From Methylophilus rhizosphaerae (lineage in GTDB: Bacteria > Pseudomonadota > Gammaproteobacteria > Burkholderiales > Methylophilaceae), in contig NZ_FNFX01000001.1 in assembly GCF_900100975.1 (NCBI RefSeq), positions 375,820 to 439,819 on the forward strand: a stretch of DNA of 64,000 bases, read 5' to 3'. Below are positions 52,239 through 59,657 of this stretch, in pieces. Below the pieces are notes generated by a model that was not told the origin of the DNA, searched no databases, and worked only from the letters and a program-made list of their open reading frames with translations. A program made the position numbers and the translations under genes. How positions within the stretch are numbered: position 1 is the first letter of the stretch; each line of letters starts with the position of its first letter.

Positions 52239-52622
52239 ATGAAAAACGCCTGCCCCTGTTATAGCGGAAAAACCTATGCCGGCTGCTGCCAGCCTTTGCA
52301 TGATGGGCTTGCCGCACCCGATGCCGAACGCCTGATGCGCTCACGCTATAGTGCTTATGCGCTTAAATTGCCAGCCTACATTTTGCAAACCTGGCATGTC
52401 GATACACGCCCGGCTACCCTCACGCAAGAGGACCTCAGTGGTATTAAATGGTTAAAGCTGCAAGTGTTGTCGCACGAACAAGTGGATGCCGAGACGGCTT
52501 TCGTGAAGTTTGTAGCAAGCTTCCAGAATGGCCAACAGAAGAAAGCGCAATTAACAGAGCATAGCCGCTTTAAAAAGGTGGATGCGCGCTGGGTGTATGT
52601 CGATGATCAGGGCAAGACTTAA
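52239..52622 (+). CDS. YchJ-family SEC-C motif protein
   Basis: 127 residues. An N-terminal SEC-C zinc motif (CPCYSGKTYAGCC) leads into the YchJ/UPF0225 core (RLMRSRYSAYALKLPAYILQTWH) and an NTF2-like domain. No function is established for the family. Convergent with the jetD-like gene, 16 bases apart, with no hairpin between. Confidence 0.88.
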   Translation: MKNACPCYSGKTYAGCCQPLHDGLAAPDAERLMRSRYSAYALKLPAYILQTWHVDTRPATLTQEDLSGIKWLKLQVLSHEQVDAETAFVKFVASFQNGQQKKAQLTEHSRFKKVDARWVYVDDQGKT

Positions 52623-52638: not shown

Positions 52639-53826
52639 TCATAGATAAGACTCTTGCTCAGCTTTGTATTGATGTTGCTGCATAAAGCGGGCAAGCATGG
52701 CTAAGTCTGGATGAAGGTCAGATTGCTGCGTGATTGACACTAATTGTTGACGATCTAAATCGGTTAATGGCAGTTGCTGTTTGCAATGATTCAAGTCATC
52801 CACCTGCATACGCCATGGCTGTGCAGGTAATCCATGTGATCGCCAGAGGTCAATCGCTATCTGCGCAATCCTGATGCCTGCCGGGTCAGGGTCGCACGCG
52901 ACCAGCAGTGGCGCAGGGCAGTGTTGCAGCAAATGTGAAACGGATTGCTGCCACCAGCCGGGTGGGAAGCCGGGCAACCATAGCACGGCGGTGTCAGGTT
53001 GACGCTTCGCAGCGGTACGCTCAAAACTGGTCAGGTTTTCCACACAAATCCATTGCTGCAAAGGTTGTGCGGCCTGCACTTGCGTCAACTGTAATATGCT
53101 GGCGGGGGTAAATGCCGCAAACGGCTGCGCCTGAGCCAGCATCAGACTACCGGCAGCACCCGTGAGCGTCAAGTCGGCAGAAATATATAATAGTTGCGTA
53201 TGCGGCTGTATGCCATAGTTTGCCAGGTCCAGGCTGGATTCCAGCCATTGCCACTCGCTACTGGAAATGGTCTTGGTTGCATCTCTGGCAAAAAGTGAAA
53301 AATCACGGTAACTGCCGGTACGCTGGTCTGCTTTCCAGCGTATTAAAGATTGAATCAATTCACCACGTGCGATGGCCCGGCTGACTGGCATGCTATCCAG
53401 GTGATCCAATGCTGGCTGCAAGTCCGGATTTGCTTCAGCGGCAATCATCAGGCCCGCAAGCAAGCTTTGCCATTGCCTGGCAAGCGCTTCATCATCTGGC
53501 AAACCGAGTTGCTGACGCATGATTTTTTGCTGCTGCAACACCACCCGGCAAGGCCACCATTCACCGTGCCTGCGCTCTTCATATACCACCGCCCAGCCGT
53601 GATTCAACAGCCAGTCCAATAAGGTCTCGGCCATCCCTTTCTGCGCCAGGCCGGCTTTTTTGATCAAGGTATCCCAACGGCTGTTACCGCCCAGCTTCAG
53701 CCATTGCGCGAGTAAATCACGCCACTCGGCAGGCAGGGTAGCGAGCGGCCCAGGAGCAGCATCCTCATAACGCTTACGCTTTTTAGGTAAACGCGATTTG
53801 TCGAGATGCTCAACGATGACAGCCAT
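52639..53826 (-). CDS. jetD: Wadjet JetD / MksG-like Toprim nuclease subunit
   Basis: 395 residues. The C-terminal Toprim domain shows the catalytic glutamate in CVENLTSFE (E263) and the DxD pair in ACDPDPAGIRIA (D312, D314), as in topoisomerases and the DUF2220 family. The N-terminal roughly 200 residues would form the DNA-binding arm of JetD. In Wadjet systems the SMC motor extrudes a loop of a small circular DNA and JetD cuts it; in MksBEFG systems the same subunit is MksG. Last gene of the operon, 3 bases after jetC. Confidence 0.85.
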   Translation of the reverse strand: MAVIVEHLDKSRLPKKRKRYEDAAPGPLATLPAEWRDLLAQWLKLGGNSRWDTLIKKAGLAQKGMAETLLDWLLNHGWAVVYEERRHGEWWPCRVVLQQQKIMRQQLGLPDDEALARQWQSLLAGLMIAAEANPDLQPALDHLDSMPVSRAIARGELIQSLIRWKADQRTGSYRDFSLFARDATKTISSSEWQWLESSLDLANYGIQPHTQLLYISADLTLTGAAGSLMLAQAQPFAAFTPASILQLTQVQAAQPLQQWICVENLTSFERTAAKRQPDTAVLWLPGFPPGWWQQSVSHLLQHCPAPLLVACDPDPAGIRIAQIAIDLWRSHGLPAQPWRMQVDDLNHCKQQLPLTDLDRQQLVSITQQSDLHPDLAMLARFMQQHQYKAEQESYL

Positions 53827-53829
53827 GGG

Positions 53830-56601
53830 CTATGACTGCTGGCGCACCAGCACACCTACCCGTGGTGCCCAGTGCGTTTCTGGTTCTTTTTTTCTTGTCA
53901 CCAGTGTGAGCATGGAAGGGTCATACACATTCACATTGTGCGTGACAGGGGTCGTGAGCAGGTATTGCGCCTTGGTGGCCTGCAAAAAGCTTGCCACACG
54001 CTTGATATTGAAAATATCCAGGTGTGCAAATGGCTCATCAATAAAAACAAAACCACCAGGGCGCGAATCTTCCATCATCAGGCCAACCAGTAAAATGAGT
54101 GACTTCATCACTTGCTGGCCGCCTGAGGCATCGCCATCATTCATGCCGGCCAGGCCTTTGTCATCAAAACCGAAACGCACCACCAGCCCCGCTTGCGACA
54201 GGCTGACATCATCCGCCGAAAACATCACGGCTTCGTGTTCCACCGCGATGCCGGCCATGTCGCCCAGTACCTTGAGGTTTTTGGTATAGCGCCCGACCGT
54301 GTGTTTCAGCACATCCACATACTGCTTGCGAGCTGCATCGGTTTGCTTGCTCGCCATCTCATTGGCGTAGCGGCGATTGTCCAGGTCCTGGCTTTGCGCT
54401 TCATAATCTGCTTTGATTTTGTTACGTAACACAACCACAGAATCATCTTTCTCCCACGATTCTGTTTCAAAGCGGCGCTCAATTTCTTCTGCTTTAATCT
54501 CGATGAGCTTTACGCTCTCCCATTTTTCCGCCAGCTGTTTATTGCTATTGGCATCCTGCCAGGTCAGCGGCAGTTGGCGTTTATCATGCCGCAAACGGAT
54601 TAAACGCCTGGCCTGCTCAGCACGACCGTCGTGATTTTCCTTCTCAGCGATGTCACGGTCCAGTTCTTTCAGCCTGGTTGTATAGCCCAACTGCTCGGTT
54701 CTGGCATCACTCAGCTGTTTTTCTAACGCCTTTCGCGCTTCGGTCGCCTCGTAGGACTGCTCACCGATTTCACGCCGTTGCGCCACCAAGATATCGTATT
54801 GTGCACGTGCTTCCGCAAACTCGGCGCTGCGGCTGGCGAGTTGCATGGTGGCATTGACCCCGGCCAGGCGCGCCTTAATCACCTGAATGTCGGCATTGAC
54901 CGGTTTCAAACGATCCAGCAGATCGCGTGACTGTCTTTCTATCTCGGCCAACTGTGTACGCAAAGCCTCCAGGCGTGCGCGGCCAAAACGTGGCTGCTCC
55001 GGCGCAGCAAAACGAGCTCCTCGCCGCTCCCGCAAATAGCCTTGCCGGGTTACCCAGTCCTGATTGCGCGGCAAGCTGGCCCCGGCATTCGCATCCTCCA
55101 CCCGCGTGATCCCTGCCAGCACGCGCGAAACCCACTCGGGCACATCGCGGGAGAATTTGACGACTTCCAGTAGCGAGCCCTTCGGAGCTAACGGCGGCTG
55201 TGCGCGCTCCGGGACAATGTAATGGCGATATTTGAGTTGCTCGCCCAGGCTTAATGCCCGCGCTTCATCTTTTTTATCGGCGAGCAACACGATGTGGGCA
55301 GACGATGCCAGTACGGCTTCTACGGCCGCCTGCCAGCGCGTATCGGTAATTTCAACCAGGTCGGTCAGTAAATCATGGCCTATGCCTGCCTTGTCCAACG
55401 CAGACCTGAAATTGGCAACATCCATCGGCTCGGCACGCTTACCACTCGCCAGGTTTTCCAACGTATCCTTGAGTTGGGTTTCCTGTGTATTGATAGCCAC
55501 CAGCTGCTGGCGCAACGCCTCCCGTTTAGCCTCCAGTGCATTCAGCTTTACCGCCTCTTCCGCACTATCCGCACCGGCTTCACCCGCCTGTTTTAACAGC
55601 AGGTCTTGTTGCTCAACCACCTTTTTCCAGCCACCAATTTCTTCATTGATGTGGTTAAGCTGCTGATTGACCTTGGTTTCCAGGGTATCAGCAAGCTCTT
55701 TACGCGTCACCAGGCTGGCCATTTCCTGCTGTTTTTGCGATTGCTGCTGTATGTGGGCAATACGCTCCTGCCGCTTCAGCAATAGGTCCCGCCTGGAGGC
55801 TTTAAGTGTATTTCTGGCGCGCTCAGCCTCTTCACTCAGGGTATAAAACGCCAGGCGTGGCTTAAACTCGCTGATTAACAGCGTCCGCTCCTGATTCAGG
55901 TTTTGCCACTCCAGATAGCGGTTCACGCGCGTTTCCATGGCTTGCAGATGATTTTCTTGCGCCCTGAGATTGTTTTCAGTGTCCTGTAACTCACGCACGG
56001 TTTGTTCTTGATGATGGCGCGCTTCCTGATAACGGGTCAGCACTTCTTCATCGCCGAACACCTCAAATACCAGCTTCAGCAGTTCCCGCTCTGAAAGCTC
56101 GCATAACTTGTCGGTTTGCCCCTGCTCAAGCGACAGCACTTTGGCGATGGCGGGAGACAGTCCTGCCGCATGCAATTGGCGTTGAAAATCCTTGACACCA
56201 AACATCTGGCCCTGGGCTTCAATCTGCTCGATCGCGACTTCGCCTTCGGCGATCCAGTATTTACGCTCCCAATCGCCGCCTTTTTTGTCGATACGACAGG
56301 CTAGCGTGATCTGGTCGTTGTTATAAAGAATGCCAAACGGGCGTTTGCTGCTGTTGATGGGGCGGCTATTGTCCACCACACCCCGCAACCAGGCAAAGCT
56401 CTCGCCGTTACGGCGTACATAACGTTTGTAATCACGCTTTTTGGAGCAATCCAGCGCGAGCAAGGTACGCAAGGCATCCAGCAAAGTGGTTTTGCCCGAG
56501 CCATTGGGGCCGACGATGGTGACGATAGACGCATCCAGTGGGACCGTAAAGCGCTGCCAGTAATCCCAATTGACGACTTCCAGATTGGTCAACCTAAACA
56601 T
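53830..56601 (-). CDS. jetC: Wadjet JetC / MksB-like SMC ATPase
   Basis: 923 residues. Walker A GPNGSGKT (31-38), two long coiled-coil arms (about 190-370 and 560-760), a central hinge-like region around residues 400-480 (EITDTRWQAAVEAVLASSAHIVLL), the ABC signature SGGQQ near 826, and Walker B FVFIDEP (851-857). It is the loop-extruding motor of an SMC complex. The length is close to MksB and shorter than what I recall of typical Wadjet type I JetC. It overlaps jetB by eight bases. Confidence 0.88.
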   Translation of the reverse strand: MFRLTNLEVVNWDYWQRFTVPLDASIVTIVGPNGSGKTTLLDALRTLLALDCSKKRDYKRYVRRNGESFAWLRGVVDNSRPINSSKRPFGILYNNDQITLACRIDKKGGDWERKYWIAEGEVAIEQIEAQGQMFGVKDFQRQLHAAGLSPAIAKVLSLEQGQTDKLCELSERELLKLVFEVFGDEEVLTRYQEARHHQEQTVRELQDTENNLRAQENHLQAMETRVNRYLEWQNLNQERTLLISEFKPRLAFYTLSEEAERARNTLKASRRDLLLKRQERIAHIQQQSQKQQEMASLVTRKELADTLETKVNQQLNHINEEIGGWKKVVEQQDLLLKQAGEAGADSAEEAVKLNALEAKREALRQQLVAINTQETQLKDTLENLASGKRAEPMDVANFRSALDKAGIGHDLLTDLVEITDTRWQAAVEAVLASSAHIVLLADKKDEARALSLGEQLKYRHYIVPERAQPPLAPKGSLLEVVKFSRDVPEWVSRVLAGITRVEDANAGASLPRNQDWVTRQGYLRERRGARFAAPEQPRFGRARLEALRTQLAEIERQSRDLLDRLKPVNADIQVIKARLAGVNATMQLASRSAEFAEARAQYDILVAQRREIGEQSYEATEARKALEKQLSDARTEQLGYTTRLKELDRDIAEKENHDGRAEQARRLIRLRHDKRQLPLTWQDANSNKQLAEKWESVKLIEIKAEEIERRFETESWEKDDSVVVLRNKIKADYEAQSQDLDNRRYANEMASKQTDAARKQYVDVLKHTVGRYTKNLKVLGDMAGIAVEHEAVMFSADDVSLSQAGLVVRFGFDDKGLAGMNDGDASGGQQVMKSLILLVGLMMEDSRPGGFVFIDEPFAHLDIFNIKRVASFLQATKAQYLLTTPVTHNVNVYDPSMLTLVTRKKEPETHWAPRVGVLVRQQS

Positions 56602-57286
56602 CGCTTACATCCCCTGTCTCTTGCTCTTCATCCGCTTCGTCTTGTACGGGGGGTGCACCGAGCTGGGTGCGGATTAAATCGCCCATGGCCCCATGAATAA
56701 TCCGGGGCGCCATTTCGGCGTAATCAAACACCAGGTCCAGCAAAGGACCTTCACATATCACTTTATTTCTGCGCTCAATTAAATCCAGGCGGCTTAATAT
56801 ACCCAAGTTAATACTGATGCGCCCCTTCCCTCCCAGCAACTTGCCGAAATCGGTCATCAATACATTTTCAGCAATGCCGCGCGACACATCTTCGCCGACG
56901 GCCTTGATAAAACTACCGAACAGATCACTTTGCTCTTCCTGGCGCTCACGCCCCAGTTGACGTTCGCGCTTGGGCAAAATAATCAAAGCCCATAACACCA
57001 CAAGCAAAGCCATGGCATCTTTGGACAAGCCCCTTAAATTTAAATTACTGGCTTGCCATTGCTCACCATCATCAAACACACTACCTTCGGTTTCACGTTG
57101 CAATGCCACAGCCACATGGGCAGCAAACGGATGATCCAGCAAGCGCAGGCCGCAGGCTGCCAAACTGGTTTCCACCTCTTGCCTGAAGCTTAAATCCACC
57201 AGCAGGCGGCGCACCATATCATCTTCACGCGATAAAAAACGGCTGGCAATCAGCCTGGCGGTAAATTGCCGTGAATTAAATTCCAT
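56594..57286 (-). CDS. jetB: Wadjet JetB / MksE-like KITE subunit (DUF4194)
   Basis: 230 residues. Winged-helix KITE-type protein of the DUF4194 class: FLSREDDMVRRLLVDLSFRQEVETSLAACGLRLLD and a second winged helix ending in ISINLGILSRLDLIERR. The acidic C-terminus (DEADEEQETGDVSDV) is typical. KITE dimers bridge the kleisin and the SMC heads. It overlaps jetA by 11 bases, so the subunits are translationally coupled. Confidence 0.85.
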   Translation of the reverse strand: MEFNSRQFTARLIASRFLSREDDMVRRLLVDLSFRQEVETSLAACGLRLLDHPFAAHVAVALQRETEGSVFDDGEQWQASNLNLRGLSKDAMALLVVLWALIILPKRERQLGRERQEEQSDLFGSFIKAVGEDVSRGIAENVLMTDFGKLLGGKGRISINLGILSRLDLIERRNKVICEGPLLDLVFDYAEMAPRIIHGAMGDLIRTQLGAPPVQDEADEEQETGDVSDV

Positions 57287-58550
57287 CTTGTGGGCTTTCT
57301 AATGGTTGCAAACTACCCGCGGTGATGCTGGCAACTTCGTTCTGGTCAATAGGCTGCAAGTGATCGGTGTCTTCATATTGCATACGGACCGGCTGGCCTG
57401 CCAATGCCGCCAGGTCAGCATCGACATTGGTTTCACCCAAAAAGGTCAGCAGGGAGTAACGATACGAGGCCGCACTAAAATCGCTGCCAACGACAAGATC
57501 GGCCAATGCCACGTTGGCAGTAATGCGTGACAACATATTATTCAGGCTTTGTAACTGTGGCGGATAGGTGAATGGCACTTCTTGCGCCTGTTCGACCTCC
57601 ACCGGTGATGGCATGGTGGATACCTTCTTGTCTGCGATGTCACGCTCCAGGAATGCTTCTGCAATATCCAGCATCACATCCGGCAACACAAATAGCGGCT
57701 CAGGCACCTGGGCAAGATCAGCACCTAACTCAACCAGCTTGTCCACCGGTTGTACCGCCAGCCATGCAGCCAGTTCCGAGGAACTCAAGCCCCCCTCGGA
57801 CAGCATCACGCGCTGGCGGGCAATTTTGGCCAGCTCATTCTGGAATACAGAACTCATGCGCATCATGCGTGACTGGCTATCGCCTATTTTCTGCGCAATC
57901 CGCCAACTGGCATCATCTGCAAAACCATTCTCTGACAGGCTTTTCAGGACTTCTGTGCCCTTTTCCATCCACTTCTGCGCAGCCACTAAGCGGCTCTGGG
58001 CCGCTTTTAGCCTGAATTCGGAACCGGACTGCACTGCCATTGAAAAATATGATTCCAGCTCGGACAGGCGAGCCAGCAAATTGGTGAGTGTTTCTGAATT
58101 GAGCTGCCCAACCGCACCGCCGGCCGCCACTTGTGAAAACAAAAAGCCCAGCTCATCATCGTCAGCACTGAAGCTGAGCATGTTAGACAAGGAGGACAAT
58201 ATCATGCGTGCCGTATGGGAAAGCTGGTACCAGCGGTGACTGGCATCCCACAACAGCAAATCATGGTCACGCAACCGCTTTAACACCGTTTCCAGCTTGG
58301 TGCCATCAATAAAGCTGAGTTGTGCCTGCAATTGCTGCGGTGTCCACTCTGTGGCATCCGCGCGTGCTGCTATCTCCCGCAGTACCGCCAGCCGGATCAT
58401 CACCTCTTCACGACCACCACGGAACAGTGCAATGAGTGCTTGTATGACATGCGCAGATTGCAGCAAAGGAAATAATGCATCGATATCGCGCGCATGGATA
58501 CCCGGCTTTAAGAACTCGTCAAAAGCATTCACCTCATCCGCTTCCGCCAT
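57276..58550 (-). CDS. jetA: Wadjet JetA / MksF-like kleisin subunit
   Basis: 424 residues. An N-terminal winged-helix region (ALIALFRGGREEVMIRLAVLREIA, then FIDGTKLETVLKRLRDHDLLLWD) and a mainly helical middle resemble the JetA/MksF kleisins, which link SMC heads and KITE subunits. The call rests partly on position before clear JetB, JetC and JetD homologues. Its ATG lies two bases after the prfB TAA, and the AAGG of the stop region can serve as the ribosome-binding site. Confidence 0.75.
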   Translation of the reverse strand: MAEADEVNAFDEFLKPGIHARDIDALFPLLQSAHVIQALIALFRGGREEVMIRLAVLREIAARADATEWTPQQLQAQLSFIDGTKLETVLKRLRDHDLLLWDASHRWYQLSHTARMILSSLSNMLSFSADDDELGFLFSQVAAGGAVGQLNSETLTNLLARLSELESYFSMAVQSGSEFRLKAAQSRLVAAQKWMEKGTEVLKSLSENGFADDASWRIAQKIGDSQSRMMRMSSVFQNELAKIARQRVMLSEGGLSSSELAAWLAVQPVDKLVELGADLAQVPEPLFVLPDVMLDIAEAFLERDIADKKVSTMPSPVEVEQAQEVPFTYPPQLQSLNNMLSRITANVALADLVVGSDFSAASYRYSLLTFLGETNVDADLAALAGQPVRMQYEDTDHLQPIDQNEVASITAGSLQPLESPQDGI

Positions 58551-58552
58551 CC

Positions 58553-59657
58553 TTACAACCCCTGCTTCAGGCTTTCCATAATAAATGGGTCCAGGTCGCC
58601 ATCCAGCACACCTTGCGTATTGCCGATTTCAACATTGGTGCGCAAGTCCTTGATACGGCCTTGATCCAGCACGTAACTGCGAATCTGGTGTCCCCAGCCG
58701 ATATCGGTTTTGGCATCTTCCAGCGCTTGTTTCTCTTCGTTGCGCTTGCTGAGTTCCAGGTTATACAACGCACCTTTCAGCATATTCATCGCCTCTTCCT
58801 TGTTGCGATGTTGTGAACGGTCATTCTGACACTGCACGACTACGCCAGTCGGCAAGTGGGTAATACGCACCGCAGAGTCAGTTTTGTTAATGTGCTGACC
58901 ACCGGCACCACTAGCCCGGTAAGTATCAATGCGCAAATCCGCCGGGTTAATTTCAATTTCAATCGAATCATCCACTTCCGGGAAAATCTGCACGCTGGCA
59001 AAACTGGTGTGGCGTTTGGAGTTGGCATCAAAGGGAGATTTACGCACCAATCGATGTACGCCACTTTCAGTACGCAAGGTACCAAAAGCATAATCGCCAC
59101 TGACCTTGATGGATGCGCCTTTAATACCGGCGATATCGCCTTCAGACTCTTCGAGCACTTCGACTTTGAAACCTTTACGCTCTACGTAGCGCAAATACAT
59201 ACGCAGTAACATACCGGCCCAGTCTTGCGCCTCGGTCCCGCCACTACCGGACTGAAATTCGATAAAGCAGTTATTCGCATCCATAGGCTGCGAGAACATG
59301 CGCTTGAACTCCATCTCAGCCACGATCTTCTCTATCTTTTGCGTATCGGCCTCAACGCTTAATAGTGTGTCATCATCATTCTCTTCGCGCGCCATTTCAA
59401 ACAATTCACGGCTATCTGACAATGATTGATACACATCATCCAGCGTCATGACGACGCCTTCCAGCATGCGTTTTTCTTTACCCAGATTTTGGGCCTTTTC
59501 TGCATTATCCCAAACTTTAGGATCTTCCAGCAGACCGTTGACTTCTTCTAAACGCTGCTGCTTGTTTTCGTAGTCAAAGATACCCCCGGAGTGCGTGATA
59601 ACGTTGGGTCAGGTCGCTCAGGGCGTTGGCAATACTATTGAGGTGTTCGGCTTCCAT
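58553..59657 (-). CDS. prfB: Peptide chain release factor 2 (programmed +1 frameshift)
   Basis: 367 residues when read as complement of 59577-59657 joined to 59575-58553, skipping the T at 59576. The short first frame ([20 protein letters not shown]...) ends at an in-frame TGA. The second frame continues [16 protein letters not shown], with the SPF anticodon-like tripeptide in [12 protein letters not shown] and GGQ in [14 protein letters not shown]2 releases peptides at UAA and UGA. A TATAAT at 59686-59691 (minus strand) is a likely -10. It is followed directly by jetA. Confidence 0.95.
59573..59588 (-). other. RF2 programmed +1 frameshift site
   Basis: Minus strand CGG-GGG-TAT-CTT-T-GAC: the in-frame UGA follows the slippery CUU codon, and GGGGG three bases before the CUU acts as the internal Shine-Dalgarno-like stimulator. 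It is the conserved RF2 autoregulation signal: low RF2 favours the shift and restores synthesis. Confidence 0.93.

Follow-up and report, generated by a model that had tools for sequence, protein, structure and literature searches.

Does the four-gene JetABCD-like operon of Methylophilus rhizosphaerae act against small plasmids, or does it serve the chromosome as an alternative condensin? The operon lies in a stretch of 64,000 nucleotides (hereafter the window; NCBI RefSeq assembly GCF_900100975.1, contig NZ_FNFX01000001.1, positions 375,820 to 439,819). The initial annotation had matched it to the JetABCD anti-plasmid system and its MksBEFG relatives, and had held that the choice between the two roles could not be made from sequence. 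Our analysis indicates that it is probably a chromosomal MksBEFG/Wadjet-group operon, belonging to a divergent branch whose closest known type is type I, and that it would act by extrusion and JetD cleavage of small circles. The match to the two families was borne out by gene order, by an SMC (structural maintenance of chromosomes) protein nearest to type I JetC and by the predicted folds of the kleisin and of JetD. Gene order, reading frames, motifs, these two predicted folds, conservation and the history shared by JetD and JetC are the observations on which the reading draws. All four minus-strand open reading frames (ORFs) were intact (Table 1) in the order kleisin, KITE protein, SMC ATPase, Toprim nuclease. 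They had been described as overlapping, which was true of JetA/JetB (11 bases) and JetB/JetC (8 bases) but not of JetC and JetD, which are 3 bases apart. A chance gene arrangement is excluded because homologues of JetA, JetB and JetC keep the same order in other genomes, with all four genes together in many loci.

The full set of ATPase motifs ascribed to the SMC protein was found: among 21 SMC sequences, Walker A (GPNGSGKTT, residues 31-39) was invariant except for P32, at which one sequence differs, and the signature (A825-S-G-G-Q-Q830) and Walker B residues D855 and E856 were invariant, with I854 varying. A HMMER search with a family profile matched all seven single type I JetCs, five with E-values of 2e-21 to 1e-14 and two with values near 1e-5; RecN gave 0.08 and 1.7, and Smc, MukB and SbcC had no match at E ≤ 10. 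The nearest relative in this test was thus type I JetC, and not RecN or SbcC, the grouping that would have spoken against the assignment. With hhalign, a seven-sequence type I JetC profile gave 7.5e-34, in an unequal comparison where the rivals were single sequences and Smc was without its N-terminus. When single sequences and full Smc were used, the type I JetCs ranged from 3.6e-14 to 1.3e-5, beside Smc at 2.6e-7, SbcC at 2.7e-6 and MukB at 1e-5; these E-values are less clear-cut than those of HMMER, since two type I JetCs are well ahead of Smc and SbcC while the remaining five are on a par with them. The idea of a Lamassu-type or SMC-like repair system in place of Wadjet finds some footing here, and also in PADLOC, where the SMC matched mad3 (4.5e-19) and LmuB (2.5e-15) as well as JetC1 (1.9e-20); the SbcC and Smc matches at Walker B were about equal to those of the weaker type I JetCs. 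However, the Smc and SbcC matches span 56-66 columns around Walker B, whereas for six of the seven type I JetCs the aligned region is at the hinge and 177-260 columns long; the operon also encodes a kleisin with a MukF-like fold and a nuclease resembling TopVI-A, so that we regard such a system as hardly credible. These comparisons support type I JetC, ahead of RecN, SbcC, Smc and MukB, as the closest in sequence to the window SMC.

The product of the first gene had been called kleisin-like, with structure prediction proposed as a check. Its AlphaFold2 model (pLDDT 80.8, pTM 0.43) returned two Foldseek matches at E ≤ 0.001, both full-length MukF (9gm7_C, 1.2e-4; 7nz2_C1, 8.4e-4). Overall TM-scores to MukF were low, about 0.17, and the likeness therefore holds domain by domain. 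No sequence profile matched it to any kleisin: the window JetA had no match in PADLOC, Pfam or NCBIfam, a PDB profile search with 34 family kleisin sequences gave no kleisin match, and the JetA profile against type I JetA stayed below threshold (E 0.012, prob 3.5). Matches of the 34 family kleisins in PADLOC (JukB in 12, best 7.7e-5; JetA1 in two, best 0.0029; three others) were not used as evidence, and the lack of an hhalign match between JetA and E. coli MukF is uninformative, since in the controls type I JetA, too, matched neither MukF nor type II JetA. The predicted fold, taken domain by domain, supports a MukF/JetA-type kleisin. For the second gene the KITE (DUF4194) label is tentative. 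JetB scored 18.4 bits against Pfam DUF4194, under the cut-off of 32.7, and DUF4194 was matched at E ≤ 0.01 by three of 22 family KITEs; its best profile match was type I JetB, also sub-threshold. PADLOC matches of the 22 KITEs (JetB3 in six, best 0.018; each JetB1 model in one or two of them, best 0.006) were again kept out of the evidence.

In the nuclease, as had been claimed, E263, D312 and D314 are intact, and together with the C-terminal K388, E390 and E392 they were invariant in 28 JetD sequences, among which no invariant or nearly invariant tyrosine was found that could stand for the topoisomerase VI (TopVI) tyrosine. The predicted model matched the folds of TopVI-A, MksG and JetD, and PADLOC JetD1 matched the protein at 8.5e-15. 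Sequences and model together support a Toprim nuclease that has the metal-binding acidic residues as well as the C-terminal glutamates and lacks the TopVI tyrosine. The curated PADLOC models recognised JetC1 and JetD1 in the operon and neither JetA nor JetB, which reflects a detection rule and not a biological definition.

By analogy, the operon most likely works by extruding loops on small circular DNA at the expense of ATP and then cleaving it. In the studied relatives, according to PMC10586767, PMC10123090 and PMC12287153, JetABC extrudes loops, the fully extruded small circle is the signal, and JetD cuts. In the window system, JetA (kleisin) and JetB (KITE) would bridge two JetC ATPases, which would spend ATP on drawing DNA into a loop. 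If the DNA is a small circular plasmid, extrusion would reach completion and the complex would stall with a segment of bent DNA exposed to a JetD dimer; the metal-binding Toprim site of JetD would then cut both strands, while large chromosomes would rarely attain the fully extruded state. Complex assembly, extrusion, size sensing, cleavage and plasmid restriction are all read across from these relatives.

We surveyed how widely the operon and its nuclease occur. The kleisin was present in 10 of 101 genomes and in 3 of 369 genomes across the class (the window's included in both counts, and one of the three in pieces); JetD was found in 4 of the 369, two of them weak. A scan of named genomes gave at least 159 relatives, of which the best 80 loci were kept (L034 and L066 duplicate the genomes G057 and G041 of the relatives set), and named Methylotenera stood among the window's nearest relatives on the JetC tree. 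By blastp, JetD adjoined JetC in 32 of the 80 loci (one clipped at a contig end, one 883 bases off), 36 loci had JetC and 1187 or more bases downstream of it with no JetD there, and 12 were too short or had no JetC and hence could not be judged. Whole-genome searches for 35 of the 36 nuclease-less loci (L082's was left out) found no JetD in 32, an unlinked JetD in two and a relic only in one. For the 12 unjudgeable loci, JetD lay elsewhere in the assembly in four (L059, L088, L093 and, through G057, L034) and was not found in the assembly in six (L045, L046, L048, L053, L071, L080), with L039 and L096 outside this search; L045, L046, L048 and L053 at least have JetD-bearing relatives. Some absences may be assembly gaps, the completeness of most genomes not being stated.

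Several genomes bear on how the nuclease came to be absent. G015 and G021, from the window's genus and 99% complete, carry prfB-JetABC-ychJ at the same site as the window, with no JetD match anywhere in the genome and no relic found downstream of the operon; they count as one event because their JetCs are nearly identical. In Thiobacillus sp. 65-1402 (L058, position 12782) the last 34 JetD residues directly follow JetC and are 73.5% identical to a Thiobacillus relative. C. alkanivorans has a JetD with no JetABC within 19 kb, and both this JetD and the C. alkanivorans JetC group with Aquitalea. On a 75-row JetC tree the presence of JetD changes state at least 8 times, a count that by itself cannot separate gain from loss. 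JetD and JetC histories agree (Mantel r 0.88, 0/999), with 16 of 31 splits common to both trees. Repeated loss is the better reading than gain, because the JetD tree follows JetC, the C. alkanivorans JetD groups like its JetC, and the relic is direct. The ratio of nonsynonymous to synonymous substitution (dN/dS) for JetABC was 0.018-0.135 in eight nuclease-less pairs and 0.024-0.237 in six JetD-bearing pairs; the SMC core is therefore under purifying selection without the nuclease as well. No docking signature emerged from a search for JetABC columns kept only where JetD is present, as such columns track clade, for the most part Chitinibacteraceae.

In G041 (L014/L066), a genome of the window's family, JetABC adjoins proA, whereas JetD, its frame intact, adjoins nadD on a different contig. 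Of 30 nadD loci in the family, 28 have proA at a distance of no more than 1.5 kb, and the other two are G041 and a locus clipped at nadD; we infer from this that the split arose by rearrangement inside an ancestral proA-JetABCD-nadD arrangement. The G041 SMC gene is frameshifted near codon 49, which weighs against a working split system. JetC of L035 is also split by a frameshift; decay or sequencing error could account for both. Separately, GNAT acetyltransferase genes were seen inside the core of two nuclease-less operons (L015:9528-9983, L016:10390-10926), between JetA and JetB in one and between JetB and JetC in the other.

The existence of relatives with and without the nuclease brings evidence to the question of plasmid defence or condensin that had been thought closed to sequence. 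The window operon could be mainly an accessory chromosome condensin of the MksBEF kind with JetD secondary or optional: 36 of 80 family loci have no JetD beside JetC, the SMC part is kept without it, and MksBEF of P. aeruginosa is a condensin (PMC7485682). In the window, however, JetD is present and in frame with its catalytic residues intact, JetD shares its history with JetC across the family, the operon is sporadic among genomes, and the window's genome already carries a canonical Smc, so that we consider this role unlikely, though worth keeping in view. For the branch as a whole we suggest, tentatively and with rather less than even confidence, a defence system that repeatedly becomes a chromosome-organising condensin, with JetD deleted or relocated, the SMC core under selection and the window in the nuclease-bearing state.

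Is the window nuclease itself still active? In the tree of the catalytic part (residues 185-395) its end branch, at 0.93, is longer than any other of the 36, against 0.28 for the N-terminal part. The N-terminal part is 59-65% identical to four close relatives and the catalytic part 44-47%; among themselves the four are 72-78% identical in the catalytic part. A copy in decay, whose nuclease no longer cuts and which is a step toward the nuclease-less state of G015 and G021, would fit this long branch, the lack of any JetD match in those two same-genus genomes, and a catalytic half only 44-49% identical to five Methylophilaceae-type JetDs when for three of these the identity in JetC reaches 80-81%. 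But the frame is full-length, every catalytic residue is kept, and a catalytic-half swap from an unsampled lineage fits equally; decay is therefore an improbable explanation. Either the halves recombine, giving a mosaic, or the catalytic half evolves fast. The dN/dS of the window JetD is unreadable because synonymous sites are saturated, and an approximately unbiased (AU) test of grouping it with its four nearest Methylophilaceae-type JetDs gave p 0.022, suggestive only, as the group was picked after viewing the trees. JetD of L038 showed the reverse pattern of divergence between the two parts.

The chromosomal site was examined through prfB, which was present in all 45 genomes searched; 30 prfB loci were fetched and screened by tblastn for lysS, ychJ and JetA. 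lysS adjoins prfB in 21 of the 30 loci, ychJ lies at prfB without the operon in two, both of the window's genus (G009 and G013, 76 and 446 bases from prfB), JetA is at prfB in two (the window and G057), and five had no marker. The empty prfB-ychJ sites and the lysS neighbours thus mark the operon as an insertion downstream of prfB. JetA starts two bases past the prfB stop, the gap between JetD and the convergent ychJ is 16 bases, and we infer co-transcription of prfB and the operon. Operon G+C is unremarkable. Among 72,556 plasmid records JetA had no match and JetC two partial ones only, in Variovorax; a plasmid-borne origin is therefore without support. By eye, the operon starts a few bases past prfB also in L012, L013, L044 and L051, from more than one family, and prfB looks like a recurrent landing site. 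In G057 the interval between prfB and JetA holds genes for a PIN-domain protein and a MazE-like antitoxin (L011:4762-5527), and PIN-like genes similar to those of G057 adjoin JetA in L036, L038 and L058, again by eye.

Table 1 Genes of the operon and its flanks in the window
Feature	Coordinates	Strand	Basis
JetA/MksF-like kleisin, 424 aa	57276..58550	-	AlphaFold2 model and Foldseek; no sequence-family match
JetB/MksE-like KITE protein, 230 aa	56594..57286	-	Weak DUF4194 match, sub-threshold type I JetB profile match, gene order
JetC/MksB-like SMC ATPase, 923 aa	53830..56601	-	Walker A, signature, Walker B, sub-cut-off SMC hinge match at 409-507
JetD/MksG-like Toprim nuclease, 395 aa	52639..53826	-	E263, D312, D314, E390, E392 intact
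prfB (release factor 2)	58553..59467	-	Upstream flank of insertion site; Pfam PCRF and RF-1
ychJ-like gene	52239..52622	+	Convergent downstream flank of insertion site; Pfam YchJ_M-like

Nuclease-less members of the Wadjet group as such are already published: PMC7617805, which kept SMCs of over 890 aa, describes several without MksG/JetD, and its data set may already include the window's branch. A close same-site pair with and without nuclease in one genus is an added observation, of which no report was found in the literature searched, seen in part and mostly excluding subscription papers. With such pairs the role of the SMC core after loss of the cutter can be tested directly, and close relatives without the cutting part make the step from defence to chromosome care testable. 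A defence-gene library, moreover, can miss half of this branch, as PADLOC did not see the window kleisin and KITE.

Among known systems, RecN and SbcC are SMC-like without kleisin and KITE, and the window operon, with a kleisin fold and its best match elsewhere, is not a member. Lamassu (LmuB, the effector LmuA and LmuC, no kleisin) is matched through LmuB by the SMC alone, whereas the window has a kleisin fold and JetD. MukBEF supplies in MukF the best Foldseek match of the kleisin model, but differs in a MukB of 1486 aa, in the lack of a nuclease and in a weaker match to the window SMC. Type II Wadjet profiles gave weak matches only; SMC ORFs at two JetD2-matched loci are 1377 and 1380 aa, and JetB in the one separable locus is 409 aa. 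By gene plan, the P. aeruginosa MksBEF condensin resembles the nuclease-less relatives of the operon, with the same three-gene kleisin-KITE-SMC core, but it has no MksG/JetD partner and the window does. Other class genomes (L118-L123: G126, G200, G172, G109, G167, G108) encode proteins that resemble JetD1 but score lower (4e-14 to 1.5e-9); in the five of these six loci that were fetched the SMC ORFs are long (1121-1172 aa), and the group probably represents further divergent type I-like branches. Type I Wadjet has SMC ORFs of 1121-1223 aa (14 JetD1-matched loci) against 923 aa in the window, whose kleisin and KITE are unrecognisable by sequence and whose family treats the nuclease as optional; yet type I JetC is the nearest relative of the window SMC, and JetABCD/MksBEFG of E. 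coli GF4-3, P. aeruginosa PA14 and C. glutamicum have the same gene order, JetD fold and catalytic residues.
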